NCBI GenBank assembly: GCA_949317995.1
Contig: OX439037.1
Coordinates: forward strand, 19,642,324 to 19,706,323
Origin: Acholoe squamosa
Lineage: Eukaryota; Annelida; Polychaeta; Phyllodocida; Polynoidae
Reading direction: 5' to 3'
DNA length: 64,000 nt
Both the position numbers and the translations under genes were made by a program. Shown here one piece after another: positions 6,401 through 59,253 of this stretch (position 1 is its first letter; each line of letters begins with the position of its first letter). The notes under the pieces are model-generated. The model saw nothing but the letters and a program-made list of their open reading frames with translations, had not been told where the DNA came from and ran no database searches.

Positions 6401-9400
6401 TCACATTTTCAATGGAGCTTTCTAAGAAAGGAAAATGGTGCAGGGAGAACCAACGGATCCACTCCCTATTCAAGCCCTACTCCGACTTTCTTTAAAAACA
6501 TAAATCTGACTTCCTGCCTCGACCTTCATCACTTCTCCCAAGTATGCCCACTTCCGACAGGGTGAGTTTGTGGGAAAGGGGAGGCGCACGTTGAAGATCC
6601 CCACATTATTCCATCATGGGGGTTCATCATGGGTGACAAGTACATGTTCCCTCACACCTGCTTGTCCCCAACCAGTTTCCACTCACTCACACACCTCCCA
6701 ACCAGGTACCAGATTAAAGCACGGCCCGCTGGTGATTGGCATGCAGATGGCATGTATCATACACAACGCGGGCTACCAGCGAATAGCCGCCATAAGCTCA
6801 CTATGATTAAGTCGGACTTAGGACTGACATGCCAGCAAAGATTGGTCTTTGCTTTATTGTTAGCGAAGCGTCCAGAAAAATAAACACCACCCCTTTCTGC
6901 ACAAAGACCCTCATTTCTCTGTGAAATGGGCGTGCGTCGGTAAAACCTGCCATATGGTGATGGGGTAGCGGGAGTGTAAGGGTGTAACCTGGTTAGTCTC
7001 TACATAGACTAGATATAACCCCCACTTTAACCCTTTAATTGTTGCATAGTGCATTGATACACTTAGCCCACTGCTGGCTGTGTTGAGTCAACTTGCCCCA
7101 TGCATGACGCTGAGCCTACAGGGTTGTTACACTCCCTAAATGTTGACATGATGCACCAATGCAGCACAGGCGAGTAGACTCACCAGCACTGCTATGATGC
7201 ATCATAATGAGCATGGACACGCTCTTGCATCATGTGGACTATATAGGGTCAATATATTTCTTTTTATACTTTTCCCCAGCACTACAGGTGTATATATAAA
7301 TAATAAAGCTACCTGTTTGCATTGACATGTGATACCCCTCTCAAAGGGTGTGCTACACAAGAATCGTACATGGGCGGGTTGCAGGTGTTACTATTGAAGC
7401 CATCACGATTATTATTTAGCCTATTAGAGCTATTCCTATGTATACATCAATTATTTCACACTGCAGCGACTCTAGAATAAATTTCATCCCATACAGATTA
7501 TTAAACTTGGAAATGAATTAGGAATAATTGGTTTCAAGGTAGCGTTCTGTCAATCTACAGTCAAACGTAATAATGTGTAATGGCGAATCTCACAACAAAC
7601 TTAACCTATACCGTAGGCATTTGTCCTAATCCTAATCACAATTAATCTACAATAGAGGTATAGAATTTCACTCCTCAAGTGAAACTATATCAGAGGTTCC
7701 AGGGCTTAAGCCTTACAGAGCCTTGTTGTTTCTGATAAAGGTAGGTAATACCGGCAGGTGGGGTTGTAAACAACGTTAATCGTGTATGTACATTGTGAAA
7801 TTGTTCGTAAGTCAAGTAAAAACAGCCTGGCCCTGCTAATCCTTGTGTAAAGATAGATCAGAGAACCAAGGGAAATGACTGGGGAAGTGGACTGTAGGCT
7901 GATTAGCCCAAGATTAAGGCGGGACCCCTGCATTCCAATATATTGGATATTGTGTTTGGGTTTATGTCGAGGGCTAGCAGAACAAGGAGAAAGGGGGAGG
8001 AGTGATTAAAAGAAAATCTAATCAACTTAGGAATGTTTATTTTTTCCTCTGAATATCTTAAATTACCAGGGTTCTTGGAATTTTTACCTCGCTCATTTCA
8101 ACCTCCTGCAACCAACCTCGCCCTCAAGCTTAGGTCTCTGAGAAAGCATTGACTGGCATGCCCCTATCTTGATCAATACATTGTATCAATTTTGCCATGC
8201 AGTAGGTTTTGAGAAATAATAAATACACATGTCCATTTTGTGATTATTTAACAATCACAATAATCACACATGCATCTCTGTCGACTTTCACTATGACCAG
8301 ATGAAAATTTAAATAATCACTTTGCCAGCAGAAATGTGAAAGTATGTACCTAAGAGATTGAATGATCTTTATTGAGAGGTGTCATGGCCCATGTCATATA
8401 GTCGTATCACCCCACCATACATCCTCATCTCATGTTATCTCTGCCGCGTTTGTCTATCCTTTGTTGCATTCCGCCATGATAAAGCATTACCCCCTCTGAT
8501 AATGTTTAGATATATGATCTGCCGACCACTATGTTTTTGCATGTGTGAAAAGCGTTGTACTTGATGGAATGGGGTTTGCATTGGGTATCAGAGGAAGAAA
8601 AGAACTGTAAATCATGTCAAAATGAAAAATGTTAATTTGGTTTCAGAAAAAAAGATTGATGAGCTCCTCTAACATCATAAAACGAACTAAAATACTTTCA
8701 ATAACATTTGGTTCAAATTTTGGGGGAAAAGAATCTATTAGATGAGCTCCTCTATGCTCCCGAAATGAACTGAAGAGATAAAGTTACCAGTGGAAGAAGA
8801 TATCTTAAATGTGAGCTGAGTGCATGGCGTCTTGGGCCAATACACAATGATCCACACATGGATATAAACTTTACTCTTTACATTTGAAGTTGTATTTTTC
8901 CTCCTCGGACATCCACAACGGCTATACCCCTAAACCATGTCTGTATCAGGTGGAAATCCTTTCAGCAGCATTATTTGTTGCAGCAAAGCCCCAGATAAAG
9001 CAGTCTATTTCACCAGGGTATGCAGAATCTGATTTATATCTTAATGCTGGGGGCTCACACCTTGTCTTCAACCCAAACAATACACGCTCCCATTTAGCTG
9101 ACGACAGCACAGTTCAACGGGAACCAGAGAAACATATTCCCGCCATTACAGCGCGCCAAAACGACAAAAGCAGACGACACTTACAGTGAGAAAGACGCTT
9201 CTGGTCGCTGTCCATGACGTCATCAAGGCTGCCGGTGTAGTCCTTTTGATCAGGTCTGAAGGAGACAAATGGAGAACACGTGAAGCCAGGTGCGACCAAT
9301 AATCCAGCTAAAGGGCAATTTGGACACATTATAAAAGCGCCCGCAGGCTGGTTTACAAGGCCTTGTATATGGCACCCACTCATGGCTGAGTGGGCGCCTT

Positions 9401-10918
9401 ACAATAGGACTACATTTCAATTTGGGAGAAAACCACCAAGAGACGTCAGTATGGACACATTACTGCCAGGACCTTTTTACATTTATTACGCTGTCTTTTT
9501 GCACTTTGGCACTTTGCCGTCTACATGTGCACTGATAATATGTATCTACTTTGAAGTCCACAAAGTCTATCTGACAGAGAAGAGGAATGACAGCTATTAT
9601 CACAAACTTTAGTCTGTTTTCTGTGTTATTTTGACCGTTTATGTTTAAATGATTGCATAAGGAGACACAAAATAATGCTCAGCTCTAGTCTGACATACGA
9701 ACCTTTCTTTTGCATCTTGGAATGCTTTGGCGAAGGGATTATATTTGATTTTCAATGCTGTGATCTGCGAAGAAATTTATAAAAGATAAATCAATCAATG
9801 TTCTTGTGTTATTTTATGTGGGAAAAGAAACGCTGATCAAAAAGTTATGTTTCAAAAATTGAGCTTTTGTATTTATGTTTAGACCATCTTATTAGTATTG
9901 GGAGACTTTCAAATTCACTTCTTTGCCACTTTCACAATCTGAGATTTTTTTCTAATGGAACCCATGTCAATGCAGTAAAATCAGAATAAATAAAGCAAAT
10001 TTGAGATTCCCATTTTTCTTCAAGTTAACCGTGGGAAAGTTTTGCTATCCAACAGCTGGAAGTAACACATTGTGAGAGGAGTTAGGGCCCATATGTGTTG
10101 GAGAGGGGGTTTAGGCTTCATTTGGTGAGTTTTACTCCAGTTCTAACCCATACTCTAACGAGGTGTGTTCGTGACAACTTGAAACAAGGTGTGAGTGGTC
10201 ACAGAGTGTCAGGTCCCTCTCAAACACCCCCACCCTCTTCTGAATATCTATTGTCTTTGTACAACCACAATCTATATACAGCCAAACAAAATCTTACTTT
10301 TATTTTAAATAATTATCGCATATCTCCTATCTATCAACCGCATTTTCCTTAGAGAACAAAATCAGTCATTCCAAGAGTTGACCTTATGAAAAATGGGCGT
10401 TAAGACGAGTATGTGAGATTGTTATTAAAGTTATAGTTCATTTTCTGAAAAGGATTTCAAATATTTTTTTTTCTTACAGGGCACATGTATCATGAAGGGC
10501 CAGCATATATTTGTCAACAGTAAGCACACATGTCATCTTGCTTCTTTTTGTTTTCTTCTGACCCTTGATAAGCGAGCAAAATGAAATTCGAAGGGCCCAT
10601 TACAAATTTCAACCTTTCCAATCCTAATTTCTTTTTTATATAGAATGTTTCACTTACCTCTTCATTCTGGTAGGCAGTAACGGCAACAAACTGTGTTTCT
10701 GTGAAGGCGTGTGTGGCTATGGTCCTCTTCTCATCCCCTGCACCCATCCTGATAATATGAACCCGGGGTTGGTACTTGTGTAGAGAGTTCAACATGATCT
10801 GTAATATAATGGAGAGAGTTGTGTGAAAGAGAAATGACTAGAAAATATAAAAAATTATGTCAACTGCATTTTTTACAAGAATTCTAAGGCTCAACAATGG
10901 CAGTGGTCCGCAGTCGTA

Positions 10919-10998
<80 letters not shown>

Positions 10999-13900
10999 AA
11001 ACTCAATCTGGAGTCAATACACATCCATGTTCAATAGATGCCGAAACAGTGGTTCATTTCTGAAAACAGACCAACAGTTTTATTTTTTAAAAACATTCGT
11101 TGTTTTTTGTCACTATTTTAAAAAAAAATGCATACCTCTAGATAATTCAGAAATTGATTTTGTCGAAAATAGGATAAAAAAAGACCTAAAATTGGAATAG
11201 AATTTCCCTGCTTGCCCTTAATCTGTATATGGATTTCTTTTCACCCTTTGTACTGTTTACCGTAACCATCACACAGCCAACGATGGAGGTGATTAATTAT
11301 GTAGATTTCAGAATGACCAAAGCAGGTTGTCTATGGGTATTTAATTATCAAGAACAAAGTGGGTGAATGGCCGTGGGAGTAAAACATAAAGGATGGGAAA
11401 TACCCCTAGATGTAGCTCAGTGTCTGGTATAATGGGTTAGAACACGGTGTTAATGGGGAGGAGATGGCTGCGTGTACAGCTTTACCCTTTAAAGGGTGAA
11501 GGGTTGCTTTACCCTTTAAAGGGTGAAGGGTTGCAGATTTGTAATTATTTTACACGAATGTAGCCCTGGCGAGTACCTCGCGGGGGCTACATTCATGCAC
11601 CAAGCCGATCGTATGTTGCACACAGCAAAGGATACATAAGATGCAGTATTGCCCTTTAAAGATTCTCCAGCACAACATGGCAGCACTGCACTGGTGCATC
11701 ATGACGCGAAATGAGTATGGAGTTTCGGGCTTAATCATGCAGCCCTTACAGGGTACACCAAAGGTGGTAGGCGTACAGAATGACTGGGCTGTACAGGTAT
11801 CCAGCACAAGCCAACACCCGGACACAGGAGCGGAAGCCGACTGGAGGATCAATGGAGCTGTGCATCTAATTAAAACGCTGCCATTGATTGGTTAACTAAC
11901 CATTTCCCACGTCCCCACACAGTGAACCCCTTTGATGTACTAACGTTACACGATAGACCATCCCCGTGCTACATCAAGATAACACATATTCACCCCTCCA
12001 GGGGGGGACGATGAGCAGCTCAGCAGAGGTTTATATCTCCATTTTCAGGAAGCAGCTCCCACCCACAGCATCCTGTATCCTGCCGTATGATTAATCCTTA
12101 AAGGGTCAGGTGTTGCCTCCAGATGAGTGGGAGTCAGTAGCTGCAGGTAACTACAGGAGGTCCTGGGTCCCGGATACTTTTCATTAATTGATAGCTTGTG
12201 GGAGGACCTATAATTGGATTCCAGATTAGAGCTGAGATTGTGGGCGGCCAGTGGTAAATATCAAAAAGGTCCTCTAGACCCCTCCCTGGGATCCAATAGT
12301 TTATGCTAGAGCCTAGACTACTAGCCTAGAGGCAAAATAAGATACAACAAATACAACAAACACAAAAGGGCATGTTCTTTTGGGCTGAAAAAAAAAACGA
12401 TCTACGCAGTGGATCCGTATAAAAACTGTTATTGTTGTAATTAAATGGCCTGACATGGTCTAAAAACTTGGGATACCTGTGTTATATGATCCCATGCTTT
12501 AATGTGGCCAATACATGTACCCCACTACCAGTCCAATTGCATTAAAAAACATTTACAACAAATTTCCCTAAACGTAATTATATTCTGAAGGAAATTGAAA
12601 GCCAAGAATCACCTCGAAAGCCTTGATAAGGGATTATTATTATGGGGGGGGGGCGGTAACAGTTGAAATTACATGTATATACAGGTCCAGGTGGTCAATC
12701 AGCCCCGCAATCAGCACTCTAAGTGATTGCTCCGCCAAATACAATGATCATCTGGGATAGGTACAGAATAGAGAGGACAAAGGACGATTTCGGCAGAGAA
12801 AATAAAAATCAGAGGACAAAGGGCACAGGGGATGGGGAGGACAGAGGGTGGACAAGGCAGAGGACAGAAAGGGTATACTGTAGGAGGGAGAGGCCAGAAA
12901 AGGAGAGGAGAGAGGGTTAGCGGAGAGAAAGGGCAGAGGAAGCAAAGGGTAGAGATCTGGGGCAGTGGAGGGCAGAGGAGAGAGCCGAGGACAGGCCAGG
13001 GAGGGGAGAGGGGAGAAGACAGAGAGTGCAGGAGGAGGCAGTCTCACTATTCCTACGGTAAACGAGTATGGTACAGCCGTAGAGTCAGGACCATATGGCG
13101 GGCGCGGCGGGCGTCTTTGAACTCACTGTATACCTCTTATAAATCTGTACCTTACCCACCAGTATCGGCTCTAACATCGGCCACTTGACTAAAACCCGTC
13201 CGGCCGTAATCAGTCCTTGTTAGGCCCAATAAAGTATCCATCTCCCACGCCTGCCCCTCCCCGGCCCTTTACTCCGCCCTCAATGAAAAACACCCCGGGT
13301 ACAAAAGCCCCCTTGTCCACCCCCTCTGTCCCCTGGGAACCCTATGTGCTTTGTACTGTACTATCCACACAGCAACCAATAGTTACAGGTGAAAATTGTA
13401 CCTGGACAAGCGACAAACCCAATTAATAGAGGCCCTATGTGTAAGGTATTGTACAGGAAGGGGTTGAGTAAGGGCTATCATGGGCACAGGTAGAGTGAGG
13501 GGGTGTACACACGGGGCCGGCCCCAGGTGAGGCGGCACCATACCTGGCCGGGCCCCGCTGTGTTGACGCCCGCCGTGCCGCAATGATCGGCAAGTTAGTG
13601 GCAGTGGAGATGAATAGAGATGGTGCCTCTGATAAGGTCAACTGCCAACAACAGAAAAACACTCTATTATCATACATGCACACAACGAGGACGAAGGGGC
13701 AGTGTTGGAGAATAGAATAAGACAAGATGGACGTTAGCTAGAATTCTGGGATAATATTAGCTGTCGGCTAATATACAAAAAGACTGTAATACACATCTAT
13801 GGAGTGATTCTTCTGTGTCTCAGCAAGATCCGACCATGCCTTTGACACTGGTAGGTGAGACGTTCCTCATTACTTCTATTTATAGGTCTCAAGTATGATA

Positions 13901-16900: not shown

Positions 16901-19900
16901 AATTACCGGTAATAACAATTTGTATATGAGAAAGAATCGTTATTTTGACAAGTTTCAGATTTTATTAGTATCACACTCCCGGGATCACACTACTTAGCAT
17001 TTCGTGCTAATAGCTACAAAGCATTTGTGTCTGTGTAGGTAGCTTGACAAGTTGACAGTTTCCCTGTGACTTTATCTCCAATACAGGACAGAGTCAGGTA
17101 ATTAATTGCTTATTTGGCCCTGGTAAATACCACATTTAGTGGTCGGAAACAGCCCCAAGGCAATATTGATTAGACACCATGCAGTAGGTCTATAAGCATG
17201 TACCCCCCCCCCCCGACTCACGCAGTCCTTCTCCAGACAATGACTATAGCCCAGCCCCTGCACTTACTGACTGTAGGGTACGTCACCTGCTTTACCAAAA
17301 ACCTGAAATAAGGGCCTTTTTTCAGAAATTTCCAATGTCCTTGACTACTAATCCACAATAAGGGGTATTTTTCTCTAAAAATGTCCGTGGATTTTTAAAG
17401 GAGGGGTCATTTTCATCTAAAAAAAATCAATGGATTTCAAAATAAGGGGTAAGATTGTATGGTTAGCAGAAATGAGTTTGATGGGCAGTGATCTATTCCA
17501 CAGAATGATTCATGATGACTAATGATAGATACATGTGATTGACTGTCAAAGGGATGCCTTTATAAGCCTTAAAAGTATGTCAATGTTTTCAAAAATAAGG
17601 GGTATTTTTAGGGCTCAAAAATCAGTGTTTTCTTAGAATAAGAGGTGTAATTTCAGCCCAAAATCAGTAAATAAGGGGTACTTTTGAAAGCTGGTAACGC
17701 AGGTGACGTACCCTTTTGTTAGAGAGTGCAGGGGCTGGGGACTGTAGTCCTTTCGGAGTGATGTATCTATGTAACTATATGTCACTGGAACTCGCTAAAA
17801 CATAGATGAATGAATGGTTTTCACTTTACTATTTAAGGGGATAATATTGTATTTTCAGATATTAGATGGACATTGTTCTACTTTTTCAACGTTTCCACAA
17901 TGCTTTCTGGTGCTCAGATATTCGTTCCTAGGCTCTGAGGTTCTGTCGATCCTTGGTCCTCGTAAAAAAAAAAGCTGCGAAATTACAATTTTGACTTATG
18001 GAAGTATCAAAATGTGCTATCAATCTCAAAGATGCAGGTATTGCCTCTTCTTTATAGAAAGAGAAGTTGCGTTGGTGTGTGAAAAAGAAAAAAAAAACAC
18101 CACACTAGAGACGATGGTATAGTGAGTGGGGACGGGCGCGTCCAGGTTAAGGGCGCTGCACTGCGGCGGCGCCCTCCTTGTGACGCCCGGCGCGTGCTCA
18201 CCTGCAGCCCGTCACCCCATCCAGGTAAACCCGGTCTGTGGACACCGCGCTCCGCCGCCAGGACTCGCCAACATGGTACATTGATCATTGGCATAGTATA
18301 AACTGACAAACTTTCCAAAGGCCAAATCATTGTGGTTCTAAAAAAACAGGGGAGCATTTTCCACCAAAACTAGGGCCCATATTAGGACCGATTTAGGCTC
18401 AAAATGGGGCCAATAAGGGGAATAAAGAAAAAAAAAGGAAGGAGGGGAGGGGGTTGCGCCCTTCAGTGAGTAATTTATTATTCGGAGGAGAAGGCGCGGC
18501 CCAAAAAAGCAGAGGTGCGCACCCCTCCTCCCTATTTTTTCCACCAGAGCTAGGGTCTTACTGAATTTAGGACATGTGGCTAATGAAGGAAATAAAGACA
18601 AAAAGGATGGGCGCTGTCGGGCACTGTCCCGCCTCTTTAGCCCGCCCCCACCCCCATGGCGACCATGGCCATTGGCGTCATAACAACACAGGATATGACT
18701 ATGAGCACAACTTTACCAGCGCACAGTTACAACAGGAGATGACTTGTGCTCTTTTTCAAATGTCCTGTTAAGATGTACATAAAAAGTACATAAACTCCCA
18801 CAGGTGTCGCTCAGGCCCATATCCATGGCTGATTATCTCTTTGAAGGCCGTCTGAGGACACCTCAAAGACACAGCCCTCAAAGTGCACCTGGGTGTGATA
18901 CCACAGATAAGGAGGCAGTTAAGACTTGTCTGAAATGTGATAACAAACATTAAAGTGGTGTGATTCAAGACCCACCCTGCCACACACATGGTATCCGCCC
19001 TACCCACTCCACCACAGGTTTCCGCTTCCGGTTTTTCATTGCGCCAATACCCGCCATGTTACGGAACAAGGGGATTCCCGTGCACCCCTATCTAAAGTAT
19101 CTCTCCTGGTGAAACTCCCGTTCATTAACCCTTTTAAGACTGCATATTAGTAAATCAATTTATGGCTGATGTCCATTTATCGCCGTGGTGCATGACTCAA
19201 GAGATGCCACTCACTGCCTTATAAAAAACAGAAAGGTCTATGCTTTTGGACACCTTTCCGCTAAAAATTGATGAAATTGAATACAGTAATTAACATTTAT
19301 TGAAAACCAGGAATTCCTGGTAAACTCGGAAGAGTTGCATCTCTGATATTAAATATAGCCTTGTTGAGTCGCCCTTCAAGAGTTGTAATGGTACAAATAA
19401 TGAGGACAAGGTCACGTTAAAATGGCGGAATGAAATCTCCTATTCATAAAGATAATTATTGATGAAAAATGATAATAGTATGCCTGCTATCAACCGGGGG
19501 CGTCCCCTGCGTCCAGTCCCTCGACACTGCTGTCACCTCCAGGATGCAGAAGGCACATGCAGATCCAGAGGAGTAGAAATCAAGTTTCATCTCAAGATTC
19601 AAAGATATATCGTGCAGAGTATTAGATATAGACACATGGTCTGTCAGAGTAGAATCCCCCTCCCGAATCTCCTGTACATTGCATGTGTTTCTGTGATGTT
19701 GATATATCTGACACAATATATTTTTTTTTTCTGGTAGGCCTAGCTGTTCGCTGAAATGGCCAAAATGATCCCACCCACTCGGTCTACTCCCCTCCATATA
19801 TCGTTGAAGTCGCAAATTTACTGCATCTCGGCCATAAATTTCAAAATAATTTAAAGTAAATGTGAAAAAGGGATCTCCTCCTCTCAGCACAACCACATCG

Positions 19901-21656: not shown

Positions 21657-24600
21657 CAACCATTTTTTTTTGCCTAAGCAGGAAGCAAAATACAAAGCTC
21701 CCTGTCTCCATCGCCTACACCCTACCCCAAGGGTACATATATCTCATCGCAATCACTCGGTGATTAGCCTCAGTACTCAAAGAAGAAAAGATCCATTTTA
21801 CTTTGATAGAGACTACTGGTAGTACAACCGACATCACCAATTTGCCATTTGCCATAACTCATGAAGGTTTGGTAACTGTTCCTTTTGTACATTTTGTATG
21901 AAAAAACTTTAATAATGAAAGGGAAATAAAACGCATTCCATCACATACCGAGAAGTAAAATTCAAAATACCATGTTTATGTCCCTTGGGATATTTGACGT
22001 TTTATTTCAATTTCAGTAACCCCTCCCCTCCATTCCCACATTCTTACCCCCGGGCCTTACCCTGGACCCCCTAGGTCTATTCACTGATATTTTTTTTAAA
22101 TAGCTGCAAGATTCCGCAGATTTAGCACCTTCGTCGTCATGATGCACTATTGCAGCGCTGCTAAGTCCATTGGCTAGCATTGCACTGGTGCATCATGCCG
22201 ACACTTCTGATGTACAAATTCAGTATGACCACCAGTTGGCATAATACAAACGTATACATTGAATGGTTCTGCGGACCTTGAGTGGTTATGTTCTTCTCTA
22301 TGTGACCAGTAAGAGGCAGGTATGTGACCACAGTTAGGAGAGCTTTGTTTACAAATCTATAATTCGTCTGATGGTATGTACAGGGGGTGTCTTTGATCCT
22401 TGCCGCCCCTAGTCTGTTTCAGACATACCTATATACATACACACATCAGTAGTTTTATTGGTTCTTGCCGCTGTCAGATTTATATTATAACGGCACTGTG
22501 TAGGACTAATGCAGGTTCATACTCCCAAATCTCATACAGGAAAAGCCAACGTGTAGCCTACATTGTGATTCACAGGATCGAGTCATGGAATCCGGGTATA
22601 GAATGAGGAATAAACTATTAAAGTCTTTAAAATTGCACAGGCATTCTTCAAGAATCTTTCCTGAATACCTTTAAATATCAAAACTTGAAACTTTGAGGTC
22701 CACGCACTACCTCGTTGACTCTAAGTTAACCCTGATGTAAAGTCCTCAAATTATCTGAAAATGCTCCAGTAGCTTCCAATCTCTTTTTCGTGAAATATCG
22801 CGAAGTGTTCAGATTTTCTGGTTCGGTCGATAGCCTGGAATACGTTATTTTTACCCATTACAGAATTGGGATCATAACTTTACTGAAACTTGACCAAAGC
22901 ATTACCACAAACAGGGCTCCTTTTCCTTTTCATTGTTTTATTTGGGTTTCTTTGATGACACTCGACCAAAGGCTCGAAATCTGTAGTATGTCGACCCAGA
23001 CGTGTTGCCCACAGTGGTCACACGGATTTAGGAGCGTCGTGCGCCCTGCAGCAGACGACAAACGCCCGCAGCAGACGACCTTCGCGTGAAATTGGCGCGT
23101 TTTCCGTCGCCGCGCGTCCGGGGCGCGCCCACTCTCCATACGCAAATCCCCTTCTTTATGCCCATCTCCGTGCAGTGAACAACTATGGTTGAAGATCTAC
23201 AAGGCCTATGCTCTCCGCCGTCGAAATGGCCGATACCACGGGCAGCCTGCAGCTATGGGCGCCGGTCTTTTCCCCCACCCTCGCTTCCCCCATATCAATG
23301 CACTAAATCCGCTAAAACAAATTCCACTGAGAGGTCTTAGTGGCGGCGGTCCGTTTCAAGTGTATCATTGTTATTGTTGGGGCGAGTTATTGACTCGGTG
23401 AGTGTTTGCATTAGGTACAGAACATCAAGGCGGGTACGTCACGCTCCGGCTTGGGGCCTTTTTCCTCCTGGCTCTACCCTTACCCCAGAAGGTCAACACT
23501 GCCCAATTGGAGTTTACACAGTGATACATAAGCCACCAGCAAAAGACGCTTACCAGCTAATAATCTACCGTAGTGATCTCCCTGTACCTTTTAATGACAA
23601 GCCTACCAGCCCCCACCCCTTACTCAGAACTGAAGCACGCACACAGCAGTTGAATTATCATAATTTATTAATGAAAAACACGGGCATTGCCTTGTGAAAA
23701 ATCGTATTTAACCTGATAAGTCTAAAGTCAATACTTAAACGGTTCGGTGTATCTGAAATAGATTCAATAACACCACATTGGAAGACTTATTCTAAGCTGA
23801 TTACATATACATTTTCCATGTACTACTAGCCACACTTGGTAGAAATCTAGTATAAGTGTATACAAACATAGGATGGTATTTTAGGTACAATCAGAAGCAA
23901 AGGACATATAGCAAACAAGTTTAAAGATTTTTTTTTCATAGAAGCAATTGCTTTGTAAGGTATCGATATTGAGATATAAAGAAGGTTTTTCTCAGCAGGA
24001 GGTCTCCCTTATACAATGGAGAAGTAAATGTTCAGCTTTAAGACGTGCTGCAATCAGGGCAACAGGTAACAACACAATCAGCTAATATAACATACACCAC
24101 ACGACACATTCCCTGCCAAATCACACAAACTCGACACTGTTTTGCTTGAGAATCTCACGCTCTCTCTCCGCTTGTCGTCTGCTAACTCAAAGCTTACTTT
24201 TGCCCGCGCGCCGCTAATTCGCGAGACGCTCACAAGGTGGCACTGCGGGGCACAGGTGTGGTATGGAAATATGGCGACGTTCTCATTAGAGGAGGGTTCT
24301 CATGTTGAGTGACAACGAAACAAATAACACAGCAGTCTACTGAGACCAGGCCGTATTATTATCAACAAGTGTTTATCACATGCCACCTTTTCCAATCCAC
24401 AATTGATGTAGAGGGGTTCTCAATTCGCTGATATATTGGCTTGTAGATACATTGTATACCCGGTACTTGAGGAGAACTTAGGAAGGATTCCATCTGGTCT
24501 CTTTAATACTTTGCTATATACTGTACTGAGGTGTTCTTGCTCAGACTTAAAGTTATAGATAAAAACTAGAAAAAGGCCCACTGTAGCAATTTAGCCACAA

Positions 24601-25950: not shown

Positions 25951-25953
25951 AGC

Positions 25954-42767: not shown

Positions 42768-43440
42768 ATGATCTTTTATTATAGCTTCTTGATTAAAAGC
42801 TGAGACTGTAATTAACATCTCCTGCAATGTGAAACTACTGGCCTGATTTAATTAAATGGACGTTTGATATGTTTACAGTGTATCATGCGTTATGCAATAT
42901 TAGGCACAATCTTCCCACAGTAAATTGTCAGCAATTATCACAATTTACCTAATATTTCATTCACTTAAAATTGAAGTTAACTAGCAGGCTATGGGACCTT
43001 CTAACGTTGCCCATCTCTTTGATAATGACACCAACAGATCTTATGAATTTGTGTAACATATGCAAGCTGATCATGCTCTCTAAAATTAATGTACACTATC
43101 ATACTAGTACCTTGCTCATAGGGCCCAGCTTATAATGCGAAATCAACTCCCGCGATTAGTATAGGTCTCAGCCGCCGATTCTTTTCTTTGTTTAATTGCT
43201 GAGATTTGGTCAATTAGAAGTTAATCTATGTTTCGGTGGGGTCTTATTGATTTATTTTATTCATAAAATAAATCATTTTACATCAGCCACCATGTGTTCA
43301 AAATTTTGACCAATAGCTCATCTACTGAAATCCTAGACCTCCACGGGCATAGAGTTACTAGATGAATCATAGCGCCTAGCACATGGTGTAGTGTTTAGTT
43401 CCCATTGAAATCAGGTTGACCTACCTACTTTATGCCCGTG
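42765..43440. other. Intergenic region
   Basis: AT-rich; nothing recognised. Confidence 0.55.
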
Positions 43441-43600
43441 TACACCATAGCAATCTGTCACAAACACTCCAAACTTGTGGACAGGTAGATGATTATAGCC
43501 TTTAGGCTGTGAAGTCACTATACACCATAACAATCTGTCCCAAGCACTCCAAACACACTGACAAGTAGATGATTATAGCCTCTAGGCTGTGCAGTGATCT
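43441..43600. repeat. 80-bp tandem repeat, two units
   Basis: TACACCATAGCAATCTGTCA at 43441 recurs at 43521 as TACACCATAACAATCTGTCC, each unit ending GATGATTATAGCCTTTAGGC-like sequence. Confidence 0.85.
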
Positions 43601-43800
43601 ACTAAAACAGTGCTGGTGAGTAGAATCATTACCACTGCATTGGTGCATCATGATACATTGTGCAGGGCCTCGGTTAGCTATTTAAGGGCATCATGATGCA
43701 CTAAAACAGTGCTGGTGAGTAGAATCGTTACCACTGCATTGGTGCATCATGATATATTGCGCATGGCCCCAATTAGCTATTTAAGGGGGTCATGATGCAC
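43601..43800. repeat. 99-bp tandem repeat, two units, each with a hairpin repeat
   Basis: ACTAAAACAGTGCTGGTGAG begins units at 43601 and 43700. Each carries a CAGTGCTGGTGAG ... CACTGCATTGGTGCATCAT hairpin copy and ends TTAGCTATTTAAGGG. This joins the dispersed hairpin family to the array that follows. Confidence 0.85.
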
Positions 43801-43857
43801 ATCATGATGTCTCGCCAGCTCTTCATTGAAGCATCAAGACGAACATCTTCAAAAAAG

Positions 43858-44792
43858 CACACTTAACCCTTTATGGATGGCATGATGAATTGATGCACAT
43901 TTAAACCTTTATGGATGGCCTGATGCATTGATGCACACTTAACCTTTTATGGATGGCATGATGCATTGATGCACACTTAACCCTTTATGGATGGCATGAT
44001 ACATTGATGCACACTGAAACCTTTATGGATGACATGATGCATTGATGCACACTGAAACCTTTATGGATGACATGATACATTGGTGCACACTTAACCCTTA
44101 TGGATAGCCTGATGCATTGATGCACACTTAACCCTTTATAGATTGCATGATGCATTGATGCACACTTAACCCTTTAGGGATAGCATGATGCATACTTAAA
44201 CCTTTATGGATAGCATGATGCAATGATGCACACTTAACCTTTATGGATGGCATGATGCATTGATGCACACTTAACCCTTTATGGATGGCATGATGAATTG
44301 ATGCACATTTAAACCTTTATGGATGGCATGATGCATTGATGCACACTTAACCCTTTATGGATGGCATGATGCATTGATGCACACTGAAACCTTTATGGAT
44401 GACATGATACATTGGTGCACACTTAGACTTTTATGGATAGCCTGATGCATTGATGCACACTTAACCCTTATGGATGACATGATGCATTGGTGCACACTTA
44501 ACCCTTTAGGGATGTATTGATGCACACTTAACCCTTTATAGATTGCATGATGAATTGATGCACACTTAACCCTTTATGGATGGCATGATGCATTGATGCA
44601 CACTGAAACCTTTATGGATAGCCTGATACATTGATGCATACTTAAACCTTTATGGATATAATGATGCAATGATGCACACTTAACCTTTTAGGGATGGCAT
44701 GATGCATTGATGCACACTTAAACATTTATGGATGGCATGATGCATTGATGCACAGTTAACCCTTTATGGGTGACCTGCTACATTGATGCACA
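43858..44792. repeat. 38-bp minisatellite/satellite array, about 24 units
   Basis: Unit: GCACACTTAACCCTTTATGG then ATGGCATGATGCATTGAT. Units vary in length by a few bases and in sequence (AAACC for AACCC, GACATGATAC for GGCATGATGC), and higher-order repeats are visible: the run at 43860-44100 resembles that at 44270-44480. The core GATGCATTGATGCA is palindromic and resembles the hairpin repeat. Confidence 0.95.
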
Positions 44793-47700
44793 CTTTAAGC
44801 ATTATCATTAACCATGACAAAATACATTACTACGGCTATGTCATGCTTAACTGATTTCCTTAATCCATCAAATACATGCCTCCTTTTTTTTCTTGACAAT
44901 TTCATTTGTGAAATTCTTTCTTAAGCATTTTACACTTACCATTCACTTCATGTCTGCAAACGAGTTCCAAAATGACCATACGATTGTTCGCAATGATTAT
45001 GAAGTTCAATTTTGATGTGAATATCAAGTTCTTATGATAATGCACTATAGTGTGATTATTTTTTCTTGACAGTTTCCTTTGTGAAAGGCCAGTATATAAG
45101 ATTATATAATAAATAATAAAAAATATTTATAACACTTTTGTTCTTTCTTACAATACAATGTTATATATTCAACCTATGATTCATATCATCATTACTTTCA
45201 TATATCATCCCCTTAGTGGTGTTATTTTAAAACATTTTTTTATATTTTAATAGCTATGCTGTGCTACTTCTTCAAACTTGATTTTATTATTAAAAAAAAA
45301 AAAAGCTGATCATTTTGTTTCTTAACCATAACAAATAAATCACCACAGCAATGCTGTGCCTTCCTCACAATTTCCTTAAGTCCTCAAAAATACGCTTCCT
45401 CGTCCTATTATATGAGGCAAGTATTCCTCATAGAAGACCACAGAAGGCAAGAAACGTGCGACGTGAGTCCCATTCTCAAAGAATACCATATTATATGCAA
45501 CATTACTATGGCATACTTAGCATGCATAATTATACCTATACATAAGTGGTGAAGTAGCTCAAAATACGAATCAACACGTCATTGTCAAGTCATTTTGTTA
45601 CACAATTTCCTGTTGATGTATTATTTAGCTCAATATACTGTATTTATCTATATCATGATGGGTCACAATTTCCTGCTCTGATCTAATTAAACAGGATCCG
45701 CACAATTCTCTGCGTAAATGTCAGTTTATGGATATAAATACCTCAATTACTACCTGATGGCAATTTTAGGCGAGGGGACTAGTCAACAACACAAAAACAA
45801 AATGTACAAAATTCAAAACAGAACACAATGCAATTTAATTTCTTTTTTTCTAATACAATCTATAATAAAAGTTACTCGTATGGTTGCAAATCTAGGTCCT
45901 TGTCACACAACCTGCAGTCAAGTTCCGTGCATTTTCCCCTCTTTGGGATGTTTAATTTCAGCTTAAGCATTTTTATGAGCATATACACTTTAACTTATCA
46001 AATCCAGCCACCCTGCTTTCACATACATATGCAGACATCTACAAAAGTGAGAGGCCACAGAAGTAAACACCACAAAGATAAAGACGTACACAGAACCTAA
46101 AATAATGGGTGTTGCATGAATGTACAAGATATGGAATAGATTTTCTGTAGTAAGGATCTGCTAGAGGAGAAGAAATTAACCAGAACAGATATATCAACAC
46201 TTTATACATGCAATTTTGAACCACAAAATATTTGTCACAGATTGCCATAGTTTGTCATAACAAATAAAGCAAATCCACCTGTCCACACACATGTTAATAT
46301 GCCTATTAGCATGAAAAAAAAAGTCTCTTAGGCTACCTGACACTACCTATAGAGCAGAGCCGACCCTAAGTATTTTAATCCAATTTCTAAGTTTTCAGAC
46401 AAATTGGCATTACCATTTTTATTTTAAAATGTGGGCGATCATGCCACATACCATTTTGTGCCCAAGGAAAACAAAACCGATAGTGACATTTTTTTGACCA
46501 GCCTCCCCTAGATTTACAGACCATCTATCCTGAAGCATACCTTCTTACCCTTTTGGCCCAACAGGCATCAAAGGCTGCACACATCACACCTACTTCATTT
46601 TATTTCGTTCACACTGAAAACACCAAGCAGTCAAGGACATGGCATTTTACTCTTTAGATACTGTGATGATCTATCGGTTACTGACATTTTCTGTGGCCTT
46701 CAAATTAAAAGCAGCCATTCTTGTCACTGGTAGGCCTGAGACTAGGTTCACAAGAATTCATCAACACACCAGGGGTTAATTGGATAAAAGGCAGTGACCT
46801 CCTTTTTTTTACATTCTCACACGATCACCAATTGTACAATTATAGTCACTGGTGGTTATGTTGCTCTTTGTGCAACACTAAATATGCAAATGAAGGAACC
46901 ACAAACTATTTGGAACTATGATATAGATAGTGCCAGGGAGGATTCATGATAGTGCACAGTTGTACAAATTCTATAATTTGGTATAAATCTGTATGTCCTG
47001 TCATGCAAGACATATAATCGAGTGTCTGAATAGAAAAACACCAATGCCTCTAACAGATGCACTGGAGTCCATATCACCTCATTCTACTAAAATGAAAGAC
47101 CACCCTTTTGTCCTCATGATCTCTTTTGGTAGCCATTATATTAAATAAAAGGGTTCTGCATTATTAATACCACATCTGCTAGCATAAGGGCAGTGAGGAG
47201 GCTCCTCTGATGTGTTTTATGTCGTCACAATTGGTAAAATGCACCAAATGGTGCATTGATTAAGCTTAGAAGCTGTTGCAACCATGCTTTTAATTATAAT
47301 AATAAAGTGTACCTTTGCAATATATCATGTAGAATACTTAATTTGGGTTATCTAAGGCTAATTACCAGGGGAAACCTGCAAGAAGTGTCAAAAGGACATG
47401 CATGGGTAGCATTTGTTTGTAGGGGAGCAGTGCATTGTAGTCAATACTGTGATGCATTAGATCAATTGTGATGTCATACAATGTGAGAGATGGGCCAGCT
47501 TCTTGCTCTCATAACAGCAGATATGTTATTAAATGTGTTAGAATCTTTTTATTTACTATAAATCCTACCAAAAGAAGTCACCATAGAAGTAGGGTGGTCT
47601 TTTTTTTTAAAGATGGGTCACTCCCTTACAAAGTAACTAGAGCTAGAGAGTGTGTGCCATATGCCGAGAAACTTGCGCAGTGGGCTTACTTTACAAAAAT

Positions 47701-48000
47701 AGATCTACAGCTGTCATTTAGGCTGGACGTAGCCTAGTTCCTTCAATTCACCCCCGTCCGACCTATCTCCCTATGTTATCCAAATAATGACCGATGATCA
47801 GTCTCAGTGCCTAAATATAAACCATGGAAATAACAGAATGGAGGCTTCGTGTGATCTAGAGGACTGAAAGAAAATCTCTAGGAATTCATCTTCAGGTATT
47901 AGGTGCCTTTGATCTCAGATCTCAATGTAACAAAACTCCCCCTTGCACAGGTCTGCATGATGCCAGGCATGATGCTACAGGTTTATGTTCACTTGAAACC
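44793..48000. other. Intergenic region
   Basis: 3.2 kb, AT-rich. I see no exon with convincing protein similarity, no TIR element and no RNA gene. A short ATGCACCAAATGGTGCAT palindrome is at 47237-47254. Confidence 0.5.
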
Positions 48001-48060
48001 ATGGTACACCAATACAGTGCTGGCGAGTTACTCCCCAGCACTACATTGGTGCATCATGCA
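48001..48060. repeat. Dispersed hairpin repeat, one of the best copies
   Basis: GTACACCAATACAGTGCTGG, then CGAGTTACTCCCCAGCACTA, then CATTGGTGCATCATGC: arms of about 24 nt pair with few mismatches. Confidence 0.8.
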
Positions 48061-48421
48061 GGTCAGCCGAGGCTGTAACAACCCTGTTGATGATGCTTGA
48101 TGCGTCACTGTAACCATCATGCCGACCAAATATTAAGCTTCTATACCAGATGGTTACCCTTCAAGGTTTAATAGACTTTGTGAGACATGAACATTATCTA
48201 GCACTAACGTCAGGCACTACCTAAAACCTGACACGATTCTTAGTACATCTAATGGCACATAGTTTTAGGTAAAAGATGGCAGAGTTTTGTAAAGAGAGCA
48301 CGTCCCATGGCTTTTACAATGAAGTATTACATCCACATTAGATAGGGTCGGCACTTTGAGATAAAAATGAACACGGCCATCCCATGGATTGTATCAGTGT
48401 TACGTCGACCGTATTGTATCA

Positions 48422-48442: not shown

Positions 48443-48447
48443 TATTT

Positions 48448-48501
48448 AGGGTGTGCCTGTTCTATATATAGATATATCTATATATAGAGAAGGCACACCC
48501 T
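48448..48501. repeat. 54-bp nearly perfect palindrome
   Basis: AGGGTGTGCCTGTTCTATAT at the left mirrors ATATAGAGAAGGCACACCCT at the right with no loop; the only mismatches are at the GT/GA step. Would extrude as a cruciform. Function unknown. Confidence 0.92.
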
Positions 48502-52876: not shown

Positions 52877-54708
52877 AATATAGCCACAGTATGCTATATT
52901 ATGCTATGATTTCAAAATTCACTGCTAATATTCCCTAGAATAGCAGGCACACCCTTCCAGTAAAACATGCATTACTCTTAACTACAATGTAGTATTGAAG
53001 TGTTGTATTTTTAAATTTCCAATGACAAGAAGTCATTAAGATCTGTTAGCTTACAGCGATGTTGCTTTCTGTTACATTTCTACAATGATATGTATTTTCC
53101 GTTATGATAATCCTATCGATGATGTTATATAAAGATTTTGAAAATACAGTTCTGTTGGCCATATGAAGGATTTTGTGAAATATTGATAATACATGTTACA
53201 TAAAAACTACCCATCTTTTTTCTTAATTTCCATACACATTATGTCGGACAGGCCTCCGAAGTATGAATTTAATGTAGTTAAATTTAGTTACTGCAACATT
53301 TAAATTCCCTCTCTGTTCCTTTCTATTATTTTTTTTTCACACCTGATGGGACATTTAGCTTGAAACCCCTGCAATGAACCAAGAATGTTGTCAAAGTTGC
53401 CACTAATGTATATGCAGGTACAACATCACCAGTTATGTAAACTATTCTTTTACCCTGTCTGAGGACGTGACATCAAATTGAGACAATAAATTCCCATTGG
53501 TTGGTTGTGGTGTAACCATGGTATCCTAAACAGATATGTTTCCTACAGATGCTTCCTGTCAATTAGGTATTCAGTGGTAGTGTGTAGTTGGAAGCAGACT
53601 TGCTTTCCATTTTCTACCATTCTTATTGACGCTTCCTTTATATCATACACTAGTAAGTCCAACGACCAGTCATCTATAAACTATGGGCCTTTTATTTGCA
53701 CATGTTAATATTTTCTGGGCATTAGCTTGGCTTGTATTGGGTAGTGTATAACCCAATTCGACTACAACCATAGTCATATTTGATGAGTGATAGGAGACAC
53801 ACGTCATATATAATGCACTAAAAGACAACGCTTTCCTGTTGTTCCGGTACTAGAGGAGGCATCCTACCCTAATAAACATGCCCTGTCTGGTATAATGGGC
53901 ACACGTGCCCATTTCTATGTAGCCATTTCCTACCAAGGAAGGCAGAGTATATCATAGTAGCCATATATTCATATTAGTGTATAATTTATTGTCATATACG
54001 ATGTAAATGCTGGGGAATGTATACATCCCCTAAGACAGTAAGCGCCGTTTTTCGCAGTGGAATTCCTTAGCCTAGATAAGATGTATTTCAATTTTGATGG
54101 CCCTGCTGACCGAACAGACGCGCCCCTAAGTTCTTTAATCAGTTAAAAAAGGTATTGTAGATGTTTATTATAGAGTGAATTCTTGAGTTGTTTGTGAGTC
54201 GCTGTTGAGAGTTGTCATTTAAAGGCATTCACAGAAATTTAAACAAGACAAAAGGAGAGATGTGCAACTGGTAGGTACATCAACACCGTTAAGTGTAGGA
54301 ACTACACGTAGCGACAAACCATTCTACTGATAATTAGAGAAAGTAGCCTCTATAAGGGACTGGCTTAGGACATACCCTTATCACTCTTATGGAATCTGAA
54401 ATGTTAAATAAAGTCCCACCTTGAACAAAACGGTCTGCAAAAAGGCTGTGTAGAATTGCACATATAGCAGTGTTGATACACCTAGCAGTTACACAAGCGC
54501 AATTTTCCTATTCATGAAGTACCCGACACTTCTAAATTGGACATGGATTGTATGGCAAAAGTGTGGGCGTGTATACTTCTAGTGTTATCAGTTGGACCTT
54601 ATCAGAAACAAAGCAGATGTCACTTTACAACATGCTGTGACCCCCAGAGACACATTCAGTACTTTAAAGGCCTCATGATGCCTACAGTTTAATGTTTATT
54701 GATGTGGT
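52877..54708. other. Intergenic region
   Basis: No gene recognised. A lone AGGCACACCCTT word at 52947 matches part of the palindrome at 48448, probably by chance. Confidence 0.5.
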
Positions 54709-54754
54709 CATGATGCACCAGTCTCTTTGTCAGCAATGCATTGGAGCATCATGC
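54709..54754. repeat. Dispersed hairpin repeat copy
   Basis: CATGATGCACCAGTCTCTTT then GTCAGCAATGCATTGGAGCA then TCATGC. Imperfect arms of the hairpin family. Confidence 0.65.
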
Positions 54755-55520
54755 GGACACTTTGAAATTGTATCAACCCAATAGGGTCGGGGTAACGCAT
54801 GGGTACAGCCCTGCTGAGTTGTACATGTACATAACAGCGCCCAATATTGCATTAATGCAATATGCCGTCCTTAAGGGATAAGGAGGCATCCAGTACCTGC
54901 AGGCTGACCTTTTACTGTTCCCCTTTGGGCTATGAAGGAACTAGTTGTTATTCTAATGTTTTTCTGCGAAGCAATTACTTCAGAGTTATTGGCCGCATTG
55001 TACTGGGTATCAGCTAGTTACAACACCTCTGGGAACAAAACACATGTATTCAAATGTCTAGTATTTCATATATCGGAAGTAGGCCTGCGGCCATTATACA
55101 TGAAGTGGAATCTGATCCTATTAGTGGGCAGTTTGGGGAAGGGAAAAACAAGGTTAATAACCCTTGGTCCTTTAAGGGCATCGCAGAATACTATTGCAGT
55201 CTACCACACTTTTTTTCTCGCGAAGCATGAGTTTGAGTTTAACCATTTTTATTGGCAGAAAACATCATAACATGTACAAGCTTTTCAGGTCAGCCAAAAT
55301 AGGAAGAAGATCAAAGATAACAAAGTAGAGTGCAGACATGTTCATCGTGAACAAACGAGTCTGCATATAAATTTGGGCTATTTCAAACAGTACGATTTAT
55401 CTAAATATCAAATATCACAGTTTACATTATTAGGGCCATCAGTCTTGTCCAATATGTTCCATTATCAGTGGCTCTTAGACAGGATATGGACCCAGCCAGT
55501 ACATGTGTTTTATGCATCAT
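54755..55520. other. Intergenic region with unrecognised ORF
   Basis: A 112-codon plus-strand frame at 54932-55270 begins MKELVVILMFFCEAITSELL but shows no family similarity I know. Treated as non-coding. Confidence 0.4.
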
Positions 55521-55583
55521 GGGATGCACCAATGCAGCTCTGGCGAGTTACTTGCATCAGTCACTGCATTGGAGCATCATGCC
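55521..55583. repeat. Dispersed hairpin repeat copy
   Basis: GGGATGCACCAATGCAGCTC then TGGCGAGTTACTTGCATCAG then TCACTGCATTGGAGCATCAT. Good arm pairing; adjacent ATGATCATGATATGG is also palindromic. Confidence 0.8.
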
Positions 55584-55867
55584 ATGATCATGATATGGGG
55601 CATCATGCCCACAAAGAACATAAACCGAGAGGTATCATGAATGGTTCAGACCTAGTCGCCCCATCGCCAATCAAAAGTGGTTCAAGGAAATGTAATCCAA
55701 AACCAAGCCTGAAGAGTGTTTCTACGCACAAAACAAACTCTTCAGCTTTTTGTTGTTCAAGAGTTGTAGAATGTTGACCGCTGATGCATTGTGAGCCCAT
55801 GGTACAGATCACGCGTCCAATACATACCCATTATAAGCTAGAACTATAATATCCTCGCCTGTAAGAC

Positions 55868-56066: not shown

Positions 56067-57430
56067 ATGGCTTCAGTCAAAGTCTACACTGCACAACAAG
56101 GGGCTACCCTCACGTACCAGCCGAGGGGTTTTACGGTAAAGCTGGTTGAATTATCGCTTTAGATAACCATGGATCACTATGGATGGTGCATAATTCTGTT
56201 AAGGTGGCTGGCGGGGATAGACTAAAAGTAATTAGATTATTGATCATCATCATTTACGCCACATTCCCATCAGATCCCTAAAACAAGAAAAATGTTGCAA
56301 GGACCACAGATAGGAGTTGCCACTCTGCAGCCGACATGTGACGTCACGGCCGACGTATGATGTCACAAATTGTGTCACAAGGTGACCGTGACGTCACTGA
56401 CAAACCGAAAACATAATGAAGTTGCTACGGTCGCTGCGCTCCCGGCTGCTACGCGGCAAGCAACTCCAAATGACATGTGCCATGCGGGTATGCAATAAGA
56501 ATGCGGGGGACGGGTCCCAAGTATATTTCTGAACTACATAACCTTCAGCCTTACCTATAGGATTCTATAGTATCAATCAATCAACGGAAGACATACACCT
56601 TAAAGATTGTCCATTGTCCATTGAAATACACATCTGCTGTTTGGATTGTATCTACCATGCATGCACAGCACCAAGCCTCTGAAAGATGAATCTGGAATAA
56701 TTCTTTTTGTTTCACTATGAACTAAACAAGTAAACCCTCACGTTTAAGATCAAGAGAAATGTGCATGTATACATTTAGAACCAAAATGTAATTCCATATA
56801 AAAACCAAAGGAATAACATTTATTTTATCAAAACGTGAGTTTTTATTACCTGAAGTACATGTACTTTTTAATGCATGTGTCCTATAAAGTCACCATGTGG
56901 TGAACTTTAAAGTCACTAAAGGCCGGGCCTGAAAGAGTTCAGCAGACCATTGTGGGATGAGGTGCAATGCCTCACGGACTTTGATCTCACAGGCATAACT
57001 GTAGTTCCACGATAATCCTCTGGGTGGCGCTCCAGACGGCGTCCTCACTCGTCCCGTGAAGTCGCCCATCAAGGTGAGAGTTGGCTGTTGGGAGGTTTGA
57101 TGGCGGCACATGGTGTGATGGATATGTTCACCTCTGACCTTGTCATTACCAGCTGATCGAGCTGTTCCCCTTCCTGCAGAGCTACTCACCTTCACACGCC
57201 TTAACCCTTTAAGGGCAGAGCAAAAATGGTTCCCCTGGCCATGGTGACGGTCTCTGAAAAAGGTTTAGTTCCTAGAGGATGAGTCTATTTTCAATTCCTA
57301 TACAAATCCTATATAGGCTAGGGGTCTTATAATAATGGGCGTCGACTATAGTCAATGCTAGGCCTACCATGGTGTCGACTATAGTGAATGCTAGCCCTCA
57401 ATGGGTTTTAAGGACTGCAAAGTGTTTTAA
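56067..57430. other. Intergenic region
   Basis: GTGACGTCAC-type CRE palindromes cluster at 56337-56400 (GTGACGTCACGG, GTGACGTCACTG). The GC-richer patch at 56930-57190 is open on the minus strand but matches nothing I know. A degraded hairpin repeat may lie at 57430-57485. Confidence 0.4.
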
Positions 57431-57489
57431 TGCATCATGCCCTATTGGTTATCCTGATGCAGAACTGCATTCATGTATCGTCTGCACCT

Positions 57490-58560
57490 TACAAGGAGGC
57501 CCTTGATGGGGGGCCCAAATGTCACATGTCGATTTTAAGAAATGCCCATGTCCCATGTCACTAAGCAAAAACCCATGTCACTAGTGTCACTAACATAGTG
57601 ACACTAGTCCCCCCCAAAAAAAGGTAAAATCTAGAGGCCATTTGGCGCATTCTGGATCATTTCTAGACCAAAATTTAGAGGCTACCCAAACCCATTTGAT
57701 GATTTATCACAAAATTCCAGGGGGATGCAGACCTAGGTCAAAGCTGATTGAATTGTCAAGGTATTCAAAGTGAATTTGTAGGTCATATAGGTTGCATCCT
57801 GACTGTGTCCCCTGAACCATGCATAATGATGTGAATTATGAGGGAAAAGAACAAAGATTGGACCATAGTTAGTAAAGCAAAGAGGGAAGGCAATTAGTGA
57901 ATGAGTGGATGGGCAATGTCCTGGGGGCACTGAACAGATAGGAAGAGTGGAAGAAAGGAGGGGGAGGGCAAAGGGACTCACAGGGAGGAGTAAAGTAATA
58001 GAGACAGAGACACTCCAACCTGCCCCCACCATCTAAAAAAGATCGAAATCTCCCAGCTAGTTTATGGGAATACAGAGGATGGGTTAGGGACCATTGAGAA
58101 AATTTTGAAAATATGAATGTCAAAATCTGCATCCTAATGACTAGTCTTTTTTCACAACAGTATGAATATTTGAAAAAATCTTTCACTGATTCAGTAAGAT
58201 GTTAGTAAGAAAATAGGTCTGTGAAAAATAGGGGGTTGCGCTTCTTGTGCCCCCCTAAGTCCGGGCCTGATTTGTCATTTGGAATAAGGAAGTATAGGGG
58301 GTCTGGGGCCTCACTATGAACATTTTGAACGTTACAAGACCAAAAGGTGAATTCTGATGCTTTTTTTAGGACAGCTGAGATCTTTTTCCAGGTCCTTTTT
58401 TTTGCTGTTACTAAGGCCCCATTTTGCATGTCGATTTTAAGAAATGGCCATGTCACATGTCACTAGCATAGCCATGTCCTATGTCGATTTTAAGAAATGG
58501 CCATGTCACCATGTCGATTTTAAGAAAGGGCTATGTCACTATGTCGAATTTAGGGGTCTA
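57490..58560. repeat. Region bounded by ATGTCGATTTTAAGAAATGG direct repeats
   Basis: ATGTCGATTTTAAGAAATG with GCCATGTCAC occurs at about 57528 and again three times in tandem at 58428, 58480 and 58512, plus ATGTCACTA words between. Copies share orientation, so this is not a simple TIR element. Confidence 0.7.
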
Positions 58561-59190
58561 GGGCCATTACAAATGTTGAACCACTCAATCTCTAAGGAAC
58601 AGCATGAACAGGCGTTATGCGGTACATGGGCCTATAAATGTAGCTTGACAATGTCAGGGACAAAGTAAATTTTCGAGCCGCGCTTTTCTCGTGTATGCCT
58701 TAATACTTTAGATTACTTGAGATTAGGCCCAAACTAAAATCAATATTTCATCTGAACAAAGTTTGAAACACTTATCATTAAACCTCCATGCATCACCCGG
58801 CAACATAGTTTCATCACTCTGTGACATCACTTCTGTGGGACTAAAATGAAACTAAAATATTATTCAATGTTCCTGACATTTTCCAATATTTGTTCATCAT
58901 CTATACAAATGTTTTATTCTGTTTCTTTTTATCGGCTCTCAAAGAGATACAAAACATGAAATGTGTTACAAGAAGGGATCTTCACTACATCCACACAACA
59001 AATTCCCTTTTTGTAGTTGTGCTACAAATGATCTTCCAGAATAGCACCCTTAATTTTACACTTTGTTGCAAAATAGCACACTATTGCTTATAAATTACGC
59101 ATTGTCTTAAGATAAAGCAAAAATATCACCTCCCTTTCTGCTGGAAGCTCTAATCATTTATAGGTCTCATAATGACAATAACGTTATAAA
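58561..59190. other. Intergenic region
   Basis: AT-rich; nothing recognised. Confidence 0.5.
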
Positions 59191-59253
59191 TCATGGTTCA
59201 CGAATGCAGTGCTGGTGAGTGTCCTAACCAGCAATGCATTGGTGAATCATGCC
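59191..59253. repeat. Dispersed hairpin repeat copy
   Basis: TCATGGTTCACGAATGCAGT then GCTGGTGAGTGTCCTAACCA then GCAATGCATTGGTGAATCAT then GCC. Compensating changes in both arms (GGTTCACGA / TTGGTGAATC). Confidence 0.75.

Follow-up and report, generated by a model that had tools for sequence, protein, structure and literature searches.

Dispersed hairpins of the annelid Acholoe squamosa are probably inner stems of a 258-bp TTAA element built of nested palindromes

What are the short hairpins dispersed through the genome of the polynoid annelid Acholoe squamosa? The window analysed here is a stretch of 64,000 nucleotides (GenBank assembly GCA_949317995.1, contig OX439037.1, positions 19,642,324 to 19,706,323 of the forward strand), in which the original prediction described eight self-complementary copies of about 60 bp and a half copy. 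It suggested a very short miniature inverted-repeat transposable element (MITE), a small structured RNA or a protein-binding palindrome. We propose that the hairpins are very probably the inner stem of a non-coding MITE of about 258 bp, inserted at TTAA, bearing CCCTTTAAGGGC inverted repeats and most likely mobilised in trans by a transposase of the piggyBac type. The proposal is based on the unit length, the terminal inverted repeats (TIRs), the terminal TTAA, the nested palindromes and the degree to which the copies depart from the consensus, all read directly from the copies. The guess of a MITE was right as to the kind of element but not as to the unit, the hairpin being an inner piece of it.

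The hairpins and the unit that contains them

Are the hairpins a real family? The eight copies and the half copy all lie where they had been reported, with an offset of 0–18 bases. At up to 6 mismatches the arm CATGATGCACCAATGCAGTGCTGG matches the window 16 times, whereas each of 20 windows simulated with a second-order Markov model gives 0–1 matches. When folded as DNA and compared with 200 shuffles, the copies at 22138, 43692, 48000, 55520 and 59192 are better than every shuffle (z −3.4 to −8.5), those at 7147 and 54709 fold weakly (z −1.97 and −1.67), and the copy at 43592 and the half copy do not rise above the shuffles (z −0.21 and 0.49). A search of the window against Rfam returned no family at the gathering score apart from two tRNAs elsewhere in the window, and the suggestion of a small structured RNA finds no counterpart there. 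A bacterial or viral origin was also considered and rejected: viral contigs contain no match to the exact 24-mer arm and four to a 17-mer, the second arm being absent from the ~60 bases that follow.

Does the likeness between copies stop at the hairpin? The flanks of different window copies resemble each other beyond it, the best pair (7147 and 54709) having a score of 63 where the highest of 360 shuffled pairs is 48. With real background segments as the null, p falls below 0.01 for 8 of 172 flank pairs and below 0.05 for 24; among the eight, one consists of the two hairpin arms, three involve the 43.6-kb tandem units and four are clean. Collinear alignments of the window copies show one common body on either side of the hairpin, with possible TTAACCCTTT ends. 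A majority left end built from five loci has 20 of 26 bases in common with the 38-bp unit of a tandem array in the window, described below (genomic p 5e-5), and the other two termini tested against this majority end fit more poorly (p 0.03 and 0.14). In a MAFFT alignment of five window copies the divergence is too high to settle the element body, and it took genomic copies to make the ends clear.

The animal's own genome (1.481 Gb, 63 contigs) was searched with the 48000 and 7147 copies as queries, which gave 424 and 844 first-look candidates, 40 being scored for each. From 58 genomic loci we extracted 74 hairpin copies, chosen by likeness to the two window hairpins. The left flank is matched in 26 of the 74, the right flank in 53 and both in 18 (score of at least 40, a cut-off set without a null); the left terminus is found in 41, the right in 33 and both in 18 (at most 3 mismatches in 14 bases). 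These flanks bear on the idea that the hairpin is a free-standing mobile palindrome of about 60 bp that hopped into larger elements. Many genome matches do span the hairpin alone (query 121–180), and a 2.16-kb element in the window holds hairpin units with no full MITE around them. However, many copies keep an identical order of flanks, the flanks are matched at the frequencies just given, and the reported half copy lies within a full-length element, so that we regard a free-standing palindrome as highly improbable. The original prediction had named hairpins internal to a longer known transposon as the finding that would overturn it; they are internal to a longer element, though one that has not been matched to a named transposon.

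Architecture, ends and arms of the element

How is the element built? The 258-bp consensus reads, in order, TTAA and the CCCTTTAAGGGC TIR, a spacer, a first hairpin (HP1), a centre, a second hairpin (HP2), a spacer, and the other TIR with TTAA. HP1 is the hairpin of the original prediction, and its inner loop is also palindromic; HP2 is a sister hairpin that begins CATGATGCATGAATGCAGCCCTGGCGAGT. The centre between them runs CCGACCCT...AGGGTCGG, and TTAACCCTTTAAGGGC stands as TIR at both consensus ends. The left half is identical to the inverted right half in 106 of 128 columns, and each half holds a near-perfect palindrome of its own, the arms of HP1 agreeing at 35 of 36 positions and those of HP2 at 33 of 35. 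The self-complementarity that had been reported stands, but not the arm length of 20–25 nt, since the arms of the genome-wide HP1 consensus reach 36 bp. As a single DNA strand the consensus folds into a cloverleaf of −126.5 kcal/mol (shuffled mean −43.3, z −26). The consensus used for folding and as genome query is the majority of 17 copies (18 had both ends, and one, of 149 bp, was omitted), with some 20 weakly supported bases of the left spacer and a few HP2 bases set by eye; the Kimura two-parameter (K2P) distances, the conservation of HP1, HP2 and TIRs and the identities of halves and arms were computed from the majority letters. The succession of TIR, HP1, centre hairpin, HP2 and TIR, in which the right half is related to the left in inverted form, suggests that the element arose when a half-unit already containing a palindrome was duplicated in inverted orientation. 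The element has the features of a MITE: it is short, leaves no room for a transposase, has TIRs at both ends and is present in many copies.

Where does the element end, and what did it enter? Located by CCCTTTAAGG only, left ends are found in 49 of the 74 copies, with exact TTAA outside in 19 of the 49 and at least three of its four bases in 32; right ends are found in 43 of the 74, with exact TTAA in 19 and at least three bases in 25. Bases −4 to −1 read T, T, A, A, and positions −8 to −5 are near random. TTAA is thus far commoner at the ends than by chance; beside such motifs elsewhere in the window it occurs once in 38 cases. The original prediction saw no clear target duplication because in the consensus HP1 is separated from the element ends by 45 and 141 bp; at those ends TTAA is conserved and the bases beyond it are not.

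Which enzyme could have moved such an element? It ends in TTAACCCTTTAA, as do piggyBac-type elements, and CCCTT beside TTAA is described as the most conserved start of piggyBac TIRs (PMC10813416, in the part cited here). The consensus has both the TTAA target at its two ends and the CCC/CCCTT terminus. The piggyBac transposase family PF13843 has 90 matches in the genome, two of them near-complete and free of stops; none of the 90 lies in the window, where a comparison of 20 open reading frames with Pfam returned only T-box and 7tm_1. We propose that a piggyBac-type transposase would act on the MITE in trans and carry it by cut-and-paste movement into TTAA, and that source copies would keep near-perfect palindromes while inserted copies would decay arm by arm.

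TTAA is equally the target of Kolobok or T2-type MITEs. An element of that type would start with AGGRR right after TTAA, and the inner TTTAAAGG would be its boundary; some left ends, such as that of the 54709 copy, do read TTTAAAGG, and T2-MITEs are described as combining TTAA with AGGRR (PMC6004289, in the part cited here). The consensus terminus, however, places CCC after the outer TTAA and before TTTAA, where AGGRR would be expected, and beyond the outer TTAA conservation ceases, in a test that presupposes CCC because the ends were located with CCCTTTAAGG. We therefore consider a Kolobok assignment improbable.

Several observations weigh against the piggyBac-type MITE that we favour. Within the window alone the ends are weak, with only 3 of 14 flanks matching the 38-bp unit at p<0.005, and a simple pairwise search gave none of seven termini a significant partner. 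Many copies are partial. The conservation of HP1 in the 74-copy set is biased, because the copies were picked by likeness to window hairpins; in 26 less biased copies HP1 and HP2 (0.79 and 0.71) are kept no better than the TIRs (0.83 and 0.79), so the hairpin is not outstandingly conserved. A set of 363 kb of DNA contains 47 distinct full-length copies; exact TTAA stands at both ends in 16, at one end in 14 and at neither in 17, counts that are expected for old copies. When the flanks of full-length copies with enough flank were joined and compared with the same 363 kb as a search for empty sites, one spanning match appeared, and it was the copy's own locus, not an empty site. Finally, the PF13843-type enzymes of the genome are at most candidate movers of an element with these TIRs.

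Do the arms of the hairpin change together? Changes in one arm had been reported as matched in the other, but this comes down to a single position of the 59192 copy (G-C to T-A). In the eight window copies one pair has changed in both arms, a count that 433 of 500 shuffles equal or exceed; the two arms of a copy are as alike (identity 0.755) as arms re-paired between copies (0.755). Hence these copies decay arm by arm, and the claim of a kept fold fails for them, their arms drifting independently with no matched excess. When the related hairpin at 11553, later recognised as of the HP2 type, is added, five matched changes stand against 1.9 expected (p 0.064). Independent drift without covariation had been named in advance as a finding that would overturn the prediction. 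Genome-wide there is a modest matched excess: 72 genomic copies show, with the subfamily column excluded, 32 matched two-arm changes against 18.0 ± 3.6, and none of 1000 re-pairings is as high. For this null the arms were re-paired within subfamilies, and two HP2-like rows of the 74 were dropped. The excluded column, which separates a C from an A subfamily, differs in both arms at once: 42 of the 74 copies have C,C and 22 have A,A. Nested subfamilies derived from palindromic source copies would explain the genome-wide excess.

The same excess, and a whole subfamily carrying a matched change, would fit palindromes that are selected or copied arm to arm, as a structured RNA, a protein site or through templated repair, and that persist for this reason. 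Against this stand the 323 one-sided changes in the same 72 copies, the absence of any excess in the eight window copies, the lack of an Rfam match for a structured RNA, and the fact that nested subfamilies from palindromic sources predict an equal excess; we judge such selection or templating unlikely. A similarly small chance is given to the idea that the cloverleaf form is itself the substrate, such that spread or arm re-matching would pass through an extruded or single-stranded form, with one arm as template of the other and every new subfamily changing both arms simultaneously.

Copies in the window and in the genome

How much of the window does the 258-bp MITE account for? A profile built from genomic copies, with no window sequence in it, finds nine places in the window at E<=1e-3 outside an element at 43.2–45.4 kb; in the reversed window no match is better than E 1.3. 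The first copy, at 7027..7252 on the minus strand, is near full length (profile 4–258, match 7027–7249, E 2.5e-33), with HP1 at 7147–7206 and with TTAA and TCAA (TTGA inward) as its two ends. The next, full-length and likewise on the minus strand, occupies 11508..11757 (profile 4–255, match 11511–11754, E 4.9e-16); it contains an HP2-type hairpin at 11548–11604 and, ending at 11703, the reported half copy (11668), and its ends read TTTA and TACA. The original prediction had overlooked this HP2-type hairpin, which a covariance model finds at E 1.4e-5, as well as two further copies. One of these, 19125..19340 (−), comprises part of HP2 and the right TIR (profile 161–257, match from 19126, E 6.9e-5), with TTAA at 19125 and the terminus TTAACCCTTTTAAGACTGCAT; the other is a right-half fragment of HP2 and right spacer at 57407..57493 (−) (profile 138–251, E 2.2e-6). 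On the plus strand, 22101..22288 joins a left half (HP1 22138–22197; profile 13–121, E 3.3e-17, 22101–22207) to a right end (profile 190–257, E 0.0029), the middle being unmatched. The plus-strand copy at 47971..48171, with HP1 at 48000–48058 and a TTAA end, is missing part of the left TIR (profile 22–258, E 5.2e-28), and that at 54662..54877 (+) is near full length with a deletion in HP1, 54709–54753 (profile 7–253, E 1.5e-29). Left halves make up the last two, 55512..55639 (−), with HP1 at 55520–55581 and a flank common to other copies (profile 37–113, E 5.5e-13, 55512–55583; 19–63, E 0.016, with the left end to 55639), and 59151..59258 (+), with HP1 at 59192–59251 (profile 2–122, E 1.6e-13).

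How common is the family elsewhere? In 75,485 bases around other loci the profile has 17 matches; the reversed control has none. Both orientations occur, 10 plus and 7 minus among these 17 and 4 plus and 5 minus among the nine window copies. Extrapolation from the 17 matches and the nine in the window, neither sample being random, would give some 2–3 x 10^5 copies or fragments genome-wide, and by match lengths the element covers about 2–4% of the sampled sequence. The consensus query gave 2877 first-look candidates; all 40 scored places match, in 83 rows, and the matches of at least 190 bases among them are at most 91% identical to the consensus. Provided that the first look picked the best copies, recent activity is therefore unlikely, and the family looks inactive. 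K2P distances to the consensus are 0.11–0.40 for the 17 copies that built it.

The hairpins reported at 43610 and 43700 belong to a separate, young 2.16-kb element at 43244..45403 (+), which carries MITE pieces in tandem. Its left end is common to 11 of 12 genomic loci compared, as is its right end, and two of the 12 have an additional copy of the left 30 bp. The ends are sharp (5' TTATTGATTTATTTTATTCATAAAATAAATCA; 3' ...CACAGCAATGCTGTG...CTTCCTCGT), identity to the copies compared is 94–99% in the 5' part and 93–98% in the 3' part, and no target site duplication was seen at the loci compared. Tandem Repeats Finder (TRF) delimits two 99-bp units at 43592..43800 (+), each with one HP1 hairpin. 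This hairpin unit occurs at 40 places at 96–100% identity, the window's own included (88 rows; 40 scored of 261 candidates), and the number of units varies between copies of the element. A 38-bp array follows at 43857..44795 (+; TRF 25.2 copies); its unit, TTAACCCTTTATGGATGGCATGATGCATTGATGCACAC, is the majority of 19 full-size units among 24 found and is much like the right terminus of the MITE, as profile matches indicate. An 80-bp tandem duplication (43441–43595) lies within the element, immediately before the hairpin units. With no target site duplication seen, palindromes close to each end and a core of tandem repeats, the 2.16-kb element resembles HINE/Helentron elements (PMC4067079, in the part cited here) and is possibly of that kind.

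The window holds other features. The 11508–11757 MITE copy lies between two exons of a T-box gene on the minus strand (14622–14972 and 10514–10837), the former Brachyury-like by its closest relative in the PDB (the one frame compared). A 54-bp near-perfect palindrome with an AT-rich middle, 48448–48501, lies near the 47971–48171 copy and outside it. A 151-bp direct repeat (37049–37199 and 37462–37612, 413 bp apart, 93% identical) includes a predicted tRNA-Cys, 37072–37145, in its first copy; the second is not called as a tRNA. The minus-strand open frame of 300 aa at 50986–51888 has no Pfam family at E 0.001 and, by motif, is presumably the end of a Penelope-like retroelement. Long repeats, both direct and inverted, are clustered from 59485 to 64000 together with TAAGGGAGTGGTCATTATTTATCAAC hairpins and C/G runs; among them 60133–60503 and 63530–63900 (371 nt) are 99% complementary.

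Comparison with known systems

What do these copies mean? Dispersed hairpins that resemble small RNAs or regulatory palindromes are explained as relics of one abundant element, and small-RNA and regulatory annotation of this genome should mask that element first. The element itself is a TTAA element built of palindromes within a palindrome, and its pieces in tandem arrays inside a younger element mark a route from MITE to satellite-like repeat. In the literature searched, which was partly covered through titles and abstract openings, no description of a nested-palindrome TTAA architecture was found; the family may already be named in Dfam or Repbase.

Among systems that share single features, we take the mobile palindromes of yeast mitochondria to be the GC clusters. 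Those dispersed short palindromes, taken as mobile, are mitochondrial, whereas the annelid palindrome belongs to a TTAA element and lies on contigs of chromosome size (PMC4478555, in the part cited here). The Kolobok T2-MITEs of Xenopus (Xmix/Xstir) are described as using a TTAA target, as prevalent and very long-lived, and as having an internal segment amplified as a repeat family (PMC6004289); the target, the prevalence, the long life and the amplified internal segment are alike, but their terminus is AGGRR and ours CCCTTTAAGG. The piggyBac superfamily shares TTAA and the CCCTT terminus (PMC10813416), although at 258 bp the element described here is too short for a transposase.

The CMITEs of Acropora corals are described as non-coding elements of about 100 bp with a TTAA target and TIRs starting CCCTTT (family II: CCCTTTAAGCCCTA), with a 75-base internal region shared across TIR types and with tandem arrays (PMC2872659, in the part cited here). 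They differ from the annelid element in length (about 100 against 258 bp) and in that nested palindromes form the body of the latter, and the words palindrome, hairpin and stem are absent from the main text of PMC2872659. The arrays here, unlike those of the CMITEs, consist of MITE pieces carried within a different element. By description, however, both are small, non-coding, TTAA-targeting elements with CCCTT-type TIRs, and by this likeness the coral CMITEs are the nearest described relatives in kind.

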